Assembly: GCF_029590555.1 (NCBI RefSeq)
Contig: NZ_CP081002.1
Location: 1,050,501 to 1,114,500, forward strand
Source of the DNA: Sphingobium sp. V4
GTDB lineage: Bacteria > Pseudomonadota > Alphaproteobacteria > Sphingomonadales > Sphingomonadaceae
Length of the DNA stretch: 64,000 bases
Direction of reading: 5' to 3'
The notes below the pieces were generated by a model that had not been told where the DNA came from, ran no database searches, and saw only the letters and a program-made list of their open reading frames with translations. Below, in pieces: positions 57,757 through 61,973 of this stretch. Within the stretch, counting starts at the first letter, position 1. Each line of letters starts with the position of its first letter. Position numbers and translations under genes: made by a program.

Positions 57757-58206
57757 CTACGCCTTCGATCGGGAAAAAATGAGTGCATCCATCGACCATT
57801 CACCGCCGCCGCGGGCGACAAGGGGAAGCAGGATCGCGGCCCAGCTGAGATGCGTCGGCCAGGCATCGGGATAGACGAAGGTCTGGATGACCATGGTCAT
57901 GCCGAGCAGGGCGAACCCCGAAAGCCGCGTGAACAGGCCCAGCACCAGCAATATCGGAAACAGATGTTCCGACCAGGTCGCCATCGTCGCCGCAAGGTCG
58001 GACGGCACGAGCGGCAGGGCATATTCGATGCGGAACAGTTCATATGCGCTGTCGGTGATGGTGATGACGCCCTCCACCTTCGTGCGTCCCGACAGGAAGA
58101 ATATGGCCGCAATGCCGAGCCGCGCGATCAGCAGCAGCAGGGCGTCGGGCAGCAGCGTTTCGATCCGCCGGATGACGGCGTCGCGCATTGGCAAGGACAG
58201 GGTCAT
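57757..58206 (-). CDS. DoxX family membrane protein linked to bufferin BufA1
   Basis: Inner-membrane protein of about 149 aa with four hydrophobic helices. ATG 58206 has GGAGA six bases upstream; longer in-frame starts overlap bufA1. Family sequence: [20 protein letters not shown] with [20 protein letters not shown] and [20 protein letters not shown]. DoxX proteins are often found with DUF2282 (BufA1) genes in metal-stress loci; the role is probably in redox or quinone-linked handling in the membrane. Follows bufA1 by 53 bp with a stem-loop between. Confidence 0.83.
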
Positions 58207-58226: not shown

Positions 58227-58252
58227 GGCCGGGACGGAATCGCGCCCCGGCC
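58227..58252 (-). promoter_or_regulatory. GC-rich stem-loop between bufA1 and doxX
   Basis: GGCCGGG (58227-58233) pairs with CCCGGCC (58246-58252) with further pairing inside the loop. No T tract follows. It may partially terminate or stabilise the bufA1 mRNA, giving more precursor than DoxX. A comparable hairpin follows bufA2. Confidence 0.5.
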
Positions 58253-58259
58253 GTCATGG

Positions 58260-58535
58260 TCAGGCCTTGGGGGAAAGCGCGCCGTTGCCCTTGGGCGTCT
58301 TGATCGACGTACATGTGCCGGCCTTCACCAGTTTCCAGGCATTGCCCTGATAATCGACCTTCGAGGTACCCGCGCAGCTCGTGCCGGGACCGGCCGCGCA
58401 GTCATTCTTGCCGGCGAGCGAGACGCCGTAGCATTTTTCCATCTTCGGCTTCGTCTCGGCATGGGCGGAAGTGGCGAGTGCGGTCGCCGAAGCGATGGCG
58501 ATGCTGGCGGCAAGCGCCGCATGAGTGGTACGCAT
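58260..58535 (-). CDS. bufA1: Bufferin precursor BufA1 (DUF2282)
   Basis: Ribosomally made, exported precursor peptide of the bufferin family, which is post-translationally modified on cysteines and buffers copper in the periplasm. 91 aa: signal peptide to AHA (residue 26), then a core with cysteines at 35, 46, 54 and 75. DUF2282 motif: [20 protein letters not shown] then [27 protein letters not shown] precedes the ATG. Preceded by its own SigF-type promoter at 58639-58664 and followed by doxX. Modification presumably uses the BufB/BufC pair encoded 2 kb away on the other strand. Confidence 0.87.
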
Positions 58536-58638: not shown

Positions 58639-58664
58639 TTCGGGGAACGTCAAGTTGTGGTTAC
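58639..58664 (-). promoter_or_regulatory. SigF-type promoter of bufA1
   Basis: Minus strand GTAACC (58664-58659), 16 bp, CGAA (58642-58639): an exact match to the Caulobacter SigF motif GTAACC-N16-CGAA. Leader to the ATG about 98 nt. Confidence 0.82.
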
Positions 58665-58697
58665 AATCGAACAGCGCAAAAAATTTCCGTCGATGAT

Positions 58698-58723
58698 GTA
58701 ACCGATGGCCGGTCCGGTCCGAA
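58698..58723 (+). promoter_or_regulatory. SigF-type promoter of sigF-nrsF
   Basis: GTAACC (58698-58703), 16 bp, CGAA (58720-58723), identical in form to the sites before bufA1 and bufA2. Transcription would begin about 14 nt before the sigF ATG, implying autoregulation. Confidence 0.82.
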
Positions 58724-58743
58724 CATGCGGGCGAGGAGATTGA

Positions 58744-59283
58744 ATGCAGACCACAGAGGAGCATCTGCGCGCGTTGATGATCGATGGGCTGGACGGTGAT
58801 GCCGCGGCCCATGCGGCATTGCTGCGCCTGCTTGTTCCGCTGCTGCGGGGTTTCTATCGGCGCCGTGTTCGCGGCGCCGACGACGATGTCGAGGATATGG
58901 TGCAGGACACCCTTATTGCCGTTCATACCCGCCGCGCGACCTATGACCGCGGGCGCGCCTTCACCGCCTGGCTCTATGCGGTCGCCCGGTACAAGATGAT
59001 CGACCATTTTCGCCGCGTCGGCCGGTTGCGGCCGATCGACGATCTGGAAGACCCTCTGGTCGCCGACGCATTTGAGGAAAGCAGCATCGCGAAGCTCGAC
59101 ATCGACGATCTGCTGGAGCATCTGCCGCCCAAACAGGCGCGGATGATCCGCGCGACCCGGCTGGACGGGCTGAGCGTCGCCGAAGCGGCAAGCGCGGAAG
59201 GCATAGGCGAATCCGACGTGAAGGTGTCGGTGCATCGCGGGCTGAAGGCGCTGATGGCGCGGGTGCAGGGGGCGATGCGATGA
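58744..59283 (+). CDS. sigF: ECF sigma factor, SigF type
   Basis: Extracytoplasmic-function sigma factor of 179 aa that would recognise GTAACC-N16-CGAA. AGGAG precedes the ATG. Region 2: DDDVEDMVQDTLIAVHTRRA with FTAWLYAVARYKMIDHFRRV. Region 4: LPPKQARMIRATRLDGLSVA with EAASAEGIGESDVKVSVHRG. The stop overlaps the nrsF ATG (ATGA at 59280-59283), as in Caulobacter sigF-nrsF. In Caulobacter this pair responds to heavy-metal and oxidative stress. Central gene of the bufferin island. Confidence 0.9.
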   Translation: MQTTEEHLRALMIDGLDGDAAAHAALLRLLVPLLRGFYRRRVRGADDDVEDMVQDTLIAVHTRRATYDRGRAFTAWLYAVARYKMIDHFRRVGRLRPIDDLEDPLVADAFEESSIAKLDIDDLLEHLPPKQARMIRATRLDGLSVAEAASAEGIGESDVKVSVHRGLKALMARVQGAMR

Positions 59284-59921
59284 ATACCGACGATCTGATC
59301 CGGCAGCTTGCCAGTGATACGCGCCCGGTGGGCAGAAACAGCGTCGCGTGGCGGTTGGCCATCGGGATCGTCGCTGGCGGTATCGCATCTGCGCTTCTTA
59401 TCCTGGCGTCGATCGGCGTCCGCCCGGATTTGGGCACGGCCATGCAGGGCACGTCCTTCTGGGTGAAATGGGGCTATACCTTCTCCCTTTCGATCGCCGC
59501 GCTGATGATGACGGCCCAGCTCGCGCGGCCAGACAGCGGTCGATTGCGGGGCCTGTGGGCGCTTGCGATACCCGTCCTGCTTCTCGCGGCGGTCGGCCTA
59601 CTGGAATTGGCGCGCACGCCCTCGTCGCAATGGCTGGCGATGTGGCTCGGCCATAGCTGGAAGAGCTGCCCGTGGCTGGTGCTGTCGCTGTCGGCGCCAA
59701 TCTTTGCCGGCCTGCTATGGTCGTTTCGCAGGCTCGCCCCGACCCGGCTCCGCGCGGCCGGAGCGGCCGCCGGCCTGTCGGCGGGAGCCTTCGCGGCGAC
59801 GGTCTACTGCATCCATTGTCCCGAAGTGTCGGCGATCTTCGTCCTGACCTGGTATTCGCTGGGGATATCGCTCGCGACCCTGATCGGGATGCTGATCGGG
59901 CCGAGGCTGCTGCGCTGGTGA
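59280..59921 (+). CDS. nrsF: NrsF-type anti-sigma factor (DUF1109)
   Basis: Inner-membrane anti-sigma factor of 213 aa with six predicted helices that holds SigF until a metal signal acts on periplasmic cysteines. Key residues known from Caulobacter NrsF are present: Cys in GHSWKSCPWLVLSLS and the pair in VYCIHCPEVSAIF. The cytoplasmic N-terminus MNTDDLIRQLASDTRPVGRN is typical. Translationally coupled to sigF. Confidence 0.88.
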   Translation: MNTDDLIRQLASDTRPVGRNSVAWRLAIGIVAGGIASALLILASIGVRPDLGTAMQGTSFWVKWGYTFSLSIAALMMTAQLARPDSGRLRGLWALAIPVLLLAAVGLLELARTPSSQWLAMWLGHSWKSCPWLVLSLSAPIFAGLLWSFRRLAPTRLRAAGAAAGLSAGAFAATVYCIHCPEVSAIFVLTWYSLGISLATLIGMLIGPRLLRW

Positions 59922-59982
59922 GGCGCGATCCGCGGCGTCTCGCGGGATGTTTCCGCCGGCCGCGTAAATTTCTGCCGCCCCT

Positions 59983-60008
59983 GTAACCGCGCGCCGCTCC
60001 GAACCGAA
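59983..60008 (+). promoter_or_regulatory. SigF-type promoter of bufA2-bufB-bufC
   Basis: GTAACC (59983-59988), 16 bp, CGAA (60005-60008), the third exact copy of the motif. Leader to the bufA2 ATG about 37 nt. Confidence 0.82.
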
Positions 60009-60050: not shown

Positions 60051-60320
60051 ATGCTCACCTATAACAGCGGCATCGGCATGGCCGCTTCCGCCGCCGCCAT
60101 CGCCATCGTATCGGCAGCAGCGGCCCCGGCCGTGGCGCAGGACGGCGCGGATACGAAGGTCGTCCGTTGCTACGGCGTCAACAGCTGCAAGGGCACGTCC
60201 GACTGCAAGACCGCCAGCAACGAGTGCAAGGGGCAGAATGTCTGCAAGGGGCATGGTTTCAAGGCCATGACCGTCAAGGCGTGCAAGGCGGCCGGAGGCA
60301 GCCTCACCGAGCCGAAATGA
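60051..60320 (+). CDS. bufA2: Bufferin precursor BufA2-type, six cysteines
   Basis: Exported precursor peptide of 89 aa. The signal peptide ends near AVAQ (residue 30). The core is Lys/Gly/Cys-rich with cysteines at 40, 46, 52, 59, 65 and 78: RCYGVNSCKGTSDCKTASNE then CKGQNVCKGHGFKAMTVKAC. It shares the CYGV opening with BufA1 but is otherwise different. GGAGAG precedes the ATG. It is the natural substrate candidate for BufB encoded 61 bp downstream, which in this family forms cysteine-derived heterocycles that bind copper. Confidence 0.85.
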   Translation: MLTYNSGIGMAASAAAIAIVSAAAAPAVAQDGADTKVVRCYGVNSCKGTSDCKTASNECKGQNVCKGHGFKAMTVKACKAAGGSLTEPK

Positions 60321-60329
60321 CGTTCCCAT

Positions 60330-60355
60330 GCCCGGCGCGACCATTCGCGCCGGGC
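60330..60355 (+). promoter_or_regulatory. Strong stem-loop between bufA2 and bufB
   Basis: GCCCGGCGCG (60330-60339) and CGCGCCGGGC (60346-60355) form a perfect 10-bp stem with a 6-nt loop and no T tract. Likely attenuates or protects the bufA2 transcript so that precursor exceeds enzyme. Confidence 0.6.
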
Positions 60356-60381
60356 AGTCCTCATGAGCAGGGAGTATGCCC

Positions 60382-61212
60382 ATGATCCCGTCCTTTCCCG
60401 GTTTCGGACTTGGCCTGCGCAAAGAACATTATGCCGGCTTTTTGGACCATCACGTCGCGGTCGATTTTCTTGAGGTGATCTCGGAGAATTTCATGGTCGA
60501 GGGCGGTCGGCCGCGGCGCATCCTGCGCGATATCCGCGCCCGCTACCCCGTCGCCCTGCATGGCGTGTCCATGTCCATCGGCTCGGCCGACGGCCTCGAT
60601 CGGGCCTATCTTGCCCGGCTTCGCGCGCTGGTGGACGACATCGAGCCGCTGTTCGTGTCGGATCATCTCAGCTGGTCGCGGATCGAAGGGTTCAGTTCCC
60701 ACGATCTGCTGCCATTGCCTTACACGCAGGAAGCACTGGACATCGTCAGCGCGAACATCGACCGCGCGCAGAATGCGCTGGGCCGTGCGATGCTGATCGA
60801 AAACCCGTCGACCTATATCGATTTCGCTCCGGCGGACATGACCGAATGGCAGTTTATCGACGCGCTGTGCGCGCGGACGGGCTGCGGCCTGCTGCTCGAC
60901 GTTAACAATGTGTTCGTCAGCGCCTGCAACCATTGCTTCGACCCTGTTGCCTATCTCGACGCCGTGCCCCATCGCCACGTGCGCCAGATTCATCTCGCCG
61001 GGCACAGCCAGGGCGACCATCTGCTGATCGACACGCACGACCAGCCGGTGCCTTCGTCCGTGTGGCAGCTCTTTGCGCATGTCCTGCCGAAGCTCGGGCC
61101 GGTCGCGACGATGATCGAGCGCGACGACGCCATCCCGCCGCTGGTCGACCTGCTGGCCGAATTGTCCACCGCACGGCGGATCGCCGCGGGAACCATGGAG
61201 GAAGCGGCATGA
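60382..61212 (+). CDS. bufB: Multinuclear non-heme iron oxidase BufB (DUF692, MNIO)
   Basis: Iron enzyme that modifies cysteines of bufferin precursors. About 276 aa; the second ATG (60382) has GGGAG at good spacing. TIM-barrel with the MNIO metal ligands: VALHGVSMSIGS (His), FVSDHLSWS (Asp, His), LIENPSTYI (Glu), LLLDVNNVFVSACNH (Asp, Asn, His), IHLAGHSQGDHLLIDTHDQP (His, Asp) and MIERDDAIPP (Glu). All look intact. The bufC ATG overlaps its stop (ATGA at 61209-61212). Confidence 0.9.
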   Translation: MIPSFPGFGLGLRKEHYAGFLDHHVAVDFLEVISENFMVEGGRPRRILRDIRARYPVALHGVSMSIGSADGLDRAYLARLRALVDDIEPLFVSDHLSWSRIEGFSSHDLLPLPYTQEALDIVSANIDRAQNALGRAMLIENPSTYIDFAPADMTEWQFIDALCARTGCGLLLDVNNVFVSACNHCFDPVAYLDAVPHRHVRQIHLAGHSQGDHLLIDTHDQPVPSSVWQLFAHVLPKLGPVATMIERDDAIPPLVDLLAELSTARRIAAGTMEEAA

Positions 61213-61973
61213 GCCTGCTGGCGTTTCAGCGCGACATGCGGGACTGGCTGGTGCGAGAAGACATGGCTGCTGCCGATCGCATCGGAGCAGAGGCGGGGCC
61301 GGGCCTTGCCGTCTATCAGAATAATTACCGCACCCAGCTTGTCGCCTGTCTGGAAAGCAGCTTTCCGCGAACCCGTGCGTGGATCGGCGAGGGCATGTTT
61401 CTTCACGCAACCGTTCACCATATCGACAGTGTCCCGCCGAGCAGCTGGACGCTTGACGCCTATGCGCGCGATTTTCCGGCGACGCTTGCACAGCTTCACG
61501 CTACCGATCCCGAGATCGCGGAAATCGCTGGCATCGAGCTTGCGCTTGAAGACCTGTTCGTTGCAGCCGACAGCCCTGCTGTTGGGGTGGAGGGTTTGGG
61601 CGATGTCGATTGGGATCGCGCGGTGCTGACGTTCGCCCCGTCGATCGACTTTCTGCACCTCAACACCAACGGCTTTGCCATTTGGTCAGCGCTGGCTGAT
61701 CAAAAGGAACCGCCCGCGCCGCAATATCTGGGCACGCCCGACGTCGCGCTCCTGTGGCGCCAGGGCGAACAATGCCGCATCAGGATTATCGACGATACCG
61801 AATTGCTGGCGCTGCTCAACATGCGCTGCGGCATGGTATTTGGCGCGTTGTGCCGCGACGTTGCAACGTTGCTCGGAGAAGAAGCAGGCATGAGGCTTGT
61901 CGGACGATGGCTGGGCGTATGGCTTTCCGATCAAATGGTTGTCGCCATAGACGGCCGCGAGGAAGCAGCGTAG
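61209..61973 (+). CDS. bufC: Bufferin partner protein BufC (DUF2063)
   Basis: 254-aa partner of BufB that likely presents the precursor peptide, analogous to the second subunit of other MNIO systems. N-terminal DUF2063 domain: LLAFQRDMRDWLVREDMAAA with LAVYQNNYRTQLVACLESSF and PRTRAWIGEGMF. The C-terminal half (VLTFAPSIDFLHLNTNGFAI) resembles a peptide-binding domain. The start in the ATGA overlap is chosen over a longer open frame upstream, which is a shadow of bufB. Confidence 0.87.
   Translation: MSLLAFQRDMRDWLVREDMAAADRIGAEAGPGLAVYQNNYRTQLVACLESSFPRTRAWIGEGMFLHATVHHIDSVPPSSWTLDAYARDFPATLAQLHATDPEIAEIAGIELALEDLFVAADSPAVGVEGLGDVDWDRAVLTFAPSIDFLHLNTNGFAIWSALADQKEPPAPQYLGTPDVALLWRQGEQCRIRIIDDTELLALLNMRCGMVFGALCRDVATLLGEEAGMRLVGRWLGVWLSDQMVVAIDGREEAA

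Follow-up and report, generated by a model that had tools for sequence, protein, structure and literature searches.

A SigF/NrsF bufferin island of Sphingobium sp. V4 with two precursor classes and a single maturase gene

The DNA analysed here, called the window, is a stretch of 64,000 nucleotides of Sphingobium sp. V4 (assembly GCF_029590555.1, contig NZ_CP081002.1, positions 1,050,501 to 1,114,500 of the forward strand). It carries an island in which the genes of an ECF sigma factor and of an NrsF-family protein lie between those of two bufferin precursors of different classes, only one of which is followed by a maturase gene. The features, in window coordinates, are the following:

57757..58206, minus strand: doxX, DoxX/HvfX-like membrane protein (PF07681, 59.5 bits)
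58227..58252, minus strand: stem-loop directly after bufA1 and before doxX (z -2.9)
58260..58535, minus strand: bufA1, Buf1-class bufferin precursor, DUF2282, four cysteines (PF10048, 87.4 bits)
58639..58664, minus strand: SigF-type promoter of bufA1-doxX, exact motif, -35 GTAACC at 58664-58659 and -10 CGAA at 58642-58639
58698..58723, plus strand: SigF-type promoter of sigF-nrsF, exact motif, kept in relatives
58744..59283, plus strand: sigF, ECF sigma factor (PF04542, PF08281)
59280..59921, plus strand: nrsF, anti-sigma factor family, with Cys130 and Cys180 (PF06532, 254.6 bits)
59983..60008, plus strand: SigF-type promoter of bufA2-bufB-bufC, exact motif, kept in relatives
60051..60320, plus strand: bufA2, Buf2-class bufferin precursor (NF050166, 106.8 bits, cut-off 60)
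60329..60356, plus strand: stem-loop directly after bufA2 and before bufB (z -4.3)
60376..61212, plus strand: bufB, MNIO bufferin maturase, PF05114 (NF050167, 376 bits, cut-off 310)
61209..61973, plus strand: bufC, DUF2063 partner protein of the MNIO (PF09836, 61 bits)

The view of the initial annotation that two bufferin types coexist in the island proved true here, BufA1 belonging to PF10048 (DUF2282) and BufA2 to NF050166. BufA1, encoded by the one DUF2282 gene that the genome was found to have, has its cysteines at positions 35, 46, 54 and 75 and a Sec signal judged by eye, and its gene presumably shares a transcript with doxX, which follows on the same strand after a 53-base gap. BufA2 has six cysteines, five of them followed by lysine, and its gene heads a Buf2 cluster made up of this precursor, a Buf2-type MNIO and the DUF2063 partner. 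No Buf1-type MNIO and DUF2063 partner genes adjoin bufA1, which is followed by doxX only. A glycosyl hydrolase family 8 gene (PF01270, 56107-57156) lies upstream of the island.

The motif GTAACC-N16-CGAA occurs exactly three times in the 64-kb window, against a mean of 0.04 in 100 dinucleotide shuffles, none of which contained three, and all copies fall within 1.4 kb. The coordinates and the constant 16-bp spacer given in the initial annotation were confirmed, and gene calls place one copy before the start of each of bufA1-doxX, sigF-nrsF and bufA2-bufB-bufC, that is, before both sets of targets and before sigF itself. The motif had also been rightly equated with the published one of Caulobacter SigF, mapped by 5'RACE for CC2907 and CC3254 (PMC3511200). 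In the whole 4.54-Mb genome there are six exact copies (three in the island and three elsewhere) against eight of a reversed control pattern, while the degenerate form GTAACS-N16-CGWA, seen in relatives, has 11 matches against 34 for the control, most of the eight matches outside the island lying inside genes or facing away from them. Since these counts are below those of the control, the motif is not in excess beyond the island, the one part of the genome in which it is clearly conspicuous, and a genome-wide SigF regulon was rejected. The scan for other members that had been suggested at the outset nevertheless gave one promoter-like candidate, the clearest besides those of the island: GTAACG-N16-CGAA (L176:1501-1526, G000:C1:166560), 49 bases before a DUF1176 gene (PF06674).

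A query with NrsF gave 53 loci from named genomes. Moreover, 199 genomes of the same family were sampled, 70 of which have an MNIO gene (89 MNIO genes found); the surroundings of all of these genes but one were fetched and annotated with profiles from the window proteins and their relatives. The MNIO at G189:C67:23937 (in the 3.8-kb locus L069) is missing from the gene-order, catalytic-residue, MNIO-number and both tree datasets. Mixed islands, defined as bufA2-bufB plus a nearby bufA1 without its own bufB, were found at 60 loci, or 58, the window included, after removal of the duplicates L104 and L172, which are absent from the promoter, first-tree, cysteine-core and hairpin counts. With at most one mismatch, all 58 islands have a SigF-type site before bufA1 (35 exact), 57 of the 58 have one before bufA2 (44 exact) and 39 of 56 have one before sigF (29 exact), whereas 200 permuted motifs reached on average 0.23-0.34 islands and at most 4. 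bufA1 and bufB are divergent in all 58; sigF shares the strand of bufA2 in 35 islands and that of bufA1 in 21, and no sigF was seen in the remaining two. Such conservation supports a promoter function of the sites, and the claim that all three transcripts have SigF-type sites was thereby borne out in relatives as well.

The island resembles the Caulobacter regulon described by Kohler et al. 2012 (PMC3511200) in its sigma/anti-sigma pair, promoter motif and spacer, and also in joining two bufferin-type operons to sigF-nrsF, with a DoxX gene accompanying a DUF2282 precursor. According to that paper, Caulobacter SigF controls sigF-nrsF, CC3254-3257 (DUF2282, DUF692, DUF2063, DoxX) and CC2907-2905 (DUF2282, DUF692, DUF2063), the starts of CC3254 and CC2907 having been mapped by 5'RACE and the CC3254 and sigF sites tested with lacZ fusions. 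The two Caulobacter operons are separate, and a DUF692 and a DUF2063 gene are present in both, whereas the window has a 4-kb island with one bufB-bufC pair. In addition, both Caulobacter precursors are listed there as DUF2282, while the window has one DUF2282 and one NF050166 precursor, the latter family giving no match in the Caulobacter control genome. A sulfoxide reductase of the Oxidored_molyb (msrP) type is among the SigF targets listed for Caulobacter (PMC3511200), in contrast to the present genome, whose only Oxidored_molyb gene (msrP-like) has no upstream site at two or fewer mismatches within the stretch fetched. From the Caulobacter SigF operons and their induction by copper, the control of two bufferin-type operons by one SigF/NrsF switch can be taken as already known; what is new here is the island with a single maturase and two precursor classes. 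No description of such an island was found in the literature searched, which excluded the original bufferin paper (PNAS 2024, PMC11626156).

A comparison with the Buf1 and Buf2 clusters surveyed by Antoine et al. 2025 (PMC12452194) leads to the same elements, namely a DUF2282 BufA1, a six-cysteine BufA2, MNIO, DUF2063 and DoxX proteins. The cluster descriptions of that survey assign genes for sigma factors and NrsF to Buf1 clusters and not to Buf2 clusters, whereas in the window sigF-nrsF adjoins bufA2, within a mixed island that has a Buf2-type MNIO only. The corresponding passages also state that MNIO groups match precursor families, note tandem precursors and suggest that some MNIOs may take more than one substrate.

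A single NrsF was found in the genome, the product of nrsF; its score of 166.8 falls short of the NCBIfam equivalog cut-off (300), and it is thus a diverged NrsF. In line with the initial annotation, which credited NrsF with its sensing cysteines, this PF06532 protein encoded next to sigF has two conserved ones: the 56 island NrsF proteins all carry Cys130 and Cys180, which, judging from a one-position offset to the profile, would correspond to C131 and C181 of Caulobacter. SigF and NrsF had been read as an autoregulated metal/oxidant switch. Precedent supports the metal part, since the copper experiments of PMC8224329 report that the Caulobacter SigF regulon, sigF and nrsF included, rises by 1.8-4.7 log2 units with copper and that a mutant in sigF is copper-sensitive and grows poorly in copper. 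The same source mentions a homologous set, the Gig (gold-induced genes) cluster of Cupriavidus metallidurans, that is induced by Au, Ag and Cu. Autoregulation is conditional, as copper induces Caulobacter sigF but the gene is described as 'not strongly auto-regulated' under dichromate in PMC3511200. Besides the 39 of 56 islands that have a sigF site, there are 17 without one, and in 16 of these sigF-nrsF lies behind bufA1-doxX on the same strand.

Two readings would undo this picture of a copper-responsive SigF switch. One holds that the three motifs are chance look-alikes and that transcription starts elsewhere, to which the genome-wide counts, no higher than those of the reversed control, lend some colour. 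It is nonetheless scarcely credible given three sites in 1.4 kb, their retention across 58 islands at a spacing of 16 bp (any other length gave only 0 to 3 islands at no more than one mismatch) and the identity of the motif with that mapped by 5'RACE in Caulobacter. The other, in which the main signal is an oxidant or some metal besides copper (chromate, cadmium), draws on the response of Caulobacter SigF to dichromate and cadmium, reported in the stress assays of PMC3511200, and on the poor resistance to oxidative stress in stationary phase that PMC8224329 cites for a sigF mutant. It appears improbable to us, because H2O2, tBOOH, paraquat and diamide gave no more than twofold induction in Caulobacter in the same assays (PMC3511200), leaving oxidants unsupported as inducers, whereas copper did induce, and because among the metals named in the relevant passage of PMC8224329 only copper gave a sigF growth defect.

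The single maturase raises a different question. bufB is the one MNIO gene found in the genome, and BufA1 has no maturase of its own there. Mixed islands occur in 32 of the 70 family genomes with an MNIO, and 24 of these 32 have exactly one MNIO. A tree of 123 BufB proteins has one branch that parts 38 of the 39 BufA1-partnered enzymes from 84 others (58 from mixed islands, 10 from BufA2 loci with no called bufA1 neighbour, three from islands without bufA2 and 13 from other families). The window BufB is among the 84, on the BufA2-serving side, where L103, the one exception among the 39, lies too, and the same split was obtained in the other BufB tree (SH-aLRT 99). The first tree left out L147, whose MNIO has fewer than 200 residues, and included nine rows without a called precursor that were left out of the 123-BufB tree; in the latter, the precursors of L140 and L141 are labelled as DUF2282 after matches at G039:C10 and G117:C2. 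Among the 'A2only' loci, L151, L157 and L054 are cut by contig ends, and in L020 bufA1 lies beyond the 4.5-kb limit. The window BufB has an ERDD motif, which agrees, within the family, with the 'Cys-Lys' class as defined in the relevant part of PMC13097082, where captophorins are described as thiooxazole RiPPs with a 5-thiooxazole on modified cysteines. The Asp after the catalytic Asp is absent in five of the 58 mixed-island enzymes, and eight of the 13 Buf2-type BufB outside the family have Ala there. The residue is thus a useful class marker within the family and not a clean one outside, for which reason classes were assigned by tree. At three loci, L095, L100 and L108, it is E, D and I, respectively.

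Maturation of both BufA1 and BufA2 by BufB-BufC would be the best explanation of this arrangement. All 58 mixed-island BufA1 keep the four cysteines, and 56 of the 58 fit a strict core pattern, the other two differing by one flanking residue each; among BufA1 with their own maturase, 42 of 44 fit, the other two rows being halves of one broken gene. The cysteine core is nearly identical in the two settings. Three genomes of one genus (G037, G115, G169; loci L095, L100, L108) have two DUF2282 genes each, a single MNIO and no BufA2 match at E 0.001 in a search with the curated families, which were used for presence and absence since our own BufA1 and BufA2 profiles cross-react. Their MNIO is on the Buf2 side of the tree and its gene, divergent from bufA1, lies directly behind a SigF-type site, with no bufA2 in between. 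This loss of bufA2 beside bufA1 is a natural test, in one lineage only. A second substrate swap is possible in G181 (L103), where the operon of a Buf2-side MNIO includes two DUF2282 precursors and no BufA2 exceeded the cut-off, the position of this enzyme inside the Buf2 side having an SH-aLRT below 95. Among genomes with an orphan bufA1, 30 of 35 are devoid of a Buf1-type MNIO, against three of seven with a bufA1-less Buf2-type island (p 0.028, kinship ignored, G181 and G189 outside the test); two of those three genomes are cut by contig ends, and p is 0.006, again ignoring kinship, when they are set aside. Five mixed-island genomes also carry a Buf1-type MNIO.

The alternative is that BufA1 works with DoxX as an unmodified four-cysteine periplasmic protein and that BufB-BufC serves BufA2 only. 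It would account for the position of BufB on the BufA2-serving side of the trees and for a separate bufA1-doxX transcript without bufB or bufC, and 'not modified' is named as an option for precursors without a nearby MNIO in the relevant passage of PMC12452194. It is harder to reconcile with a central cysteine core as conserved as that of BufA1 with their own maturase, and with the retention of an MNIO and its partner beside BufA1 in the three genomes without a BufA2 match. We regard it as unlikely, though deserving of some weight. Dual maturation, on the contrary, would mean that BufB-BufC took over BufA1, and we lean towards a history in which a sphingomonad Buf2-type MNIO and its partner assumed Buf1 maturation after loss of the Buf1-type maturase, BufA2 being later lost in at least one genus.

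The stem-loops after the two precursor genes are also recurrent. Stems of at least 8 were found in 48 of 57 bufA2-bufB gaps (3.8 expected from shuffles) and in 28 of 55 bufA1-doxX gaps (5.5 expected), whereas only two of 34 nrsF-bufA2 gaps have one (3.3 expected). The bufA1 stem-loop fits a loose terminator pattern, of a kind found three times against 2.9 expected in shuffles. The stem-loops after both precursor genes likely serve to yield more precursor than downstream mRNA.

Beyond the family, 241 genomes of the class were sampled, 13 of which, besides the own genome, have a BufA2 over the cut-off. The 15 BufA2 loci fetched from 13 genomes of other families showed no orphan bufA1 and no NrsF match within the 10-15 kb retrieved for each, and the two of them with a nearby four-cysteine precursor carry a further bufB-bufC for that precursor. 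A SigF-type site with at most one mismatch stands before five of 17 six-cysteine precursor genes of other families, where permutations give an expectation of 0.18 over all 19 precursors; the five genomes with a site have an NrsF gene elsewhere, and a sixth NrsF genome has no site. These Buf2-class genes with SigF-type sites (L213, L214, L216, L217, L219) belong to two other families. SigF control of Buf2-class genes would thus not be confined to sphingomonads, while the one-MNIO mixed island was seen only in these bacteria and in the metagenome contig L045, which is labelled Gammaproteobacteria.

Other gene contents were observed around NrsF. In five of 16 bufferin-less sigF-nrsF loci, a DUF1223 gene (PF06764) adjoins sigF-nrsF near a SigF-type site (L025:7522-8244, L028:7557-8381, L040:2829-3566, L044:3495-4271, L048:9723-10463), a sixth case in L051 looks alike by sequence, and DUF1223 is a possible second kind of SigF cargo. 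A dense bufferin locus lies on one contig of G189 (L122, L069): bufA1-bufB-bufC is present twice, together with a bufA2 in divergent orientation, sigF-nrsF and several SigF-type motifs, and an additional bufB-bufC pair neighbours an nrsF; in the L069 part, NrsF and SigF-type sites are present and no precursor was called.

In the model proposed for the window, NrsF would hold SigF inactive, as in Caulobacter, until metal stress, most likely by copper, acts at its two conserved cysteines and frees the sigma factor. SigF would then transcribe bufA1-doxX, sigF-nrsF and bufA2-bufB-bufC from promoters of one type, the hairpins after each precursor gene probably keeping precursor mRNA above that of the downstream genes. 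The four-cysteine BufA1 and the six-cysteine BufA2 would be exported, both modified by the single Buf2-type pair BufB-BufC, and both modified peptides would bind copper in the periplasm. This explanation of the island as a condensed SigF/NrsF bufferin regulon, dual maturation included, is in our judgement probable.

In summary, two kinds of copper-binding peptides appear to be turned on jointly by one sigma factor, in a bufferin regulon that has been condensed to one locus and has kept its promoter motif unchanged. MNIOs are reported to group by precursor family, and here one enzyme is left with two frameworks in a conserved island; together with the lineage in which one precursor was lost, the island offers a comparative and biochemical test of how an MNIO chooses its cysteines. 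If the proposed take-over is true, sphingomonads would possess a dual-substrate thiooxazole synthase within a single SigF-controlled island, and one genus would have been left with the borrowed substrate alone after losing BufA2.
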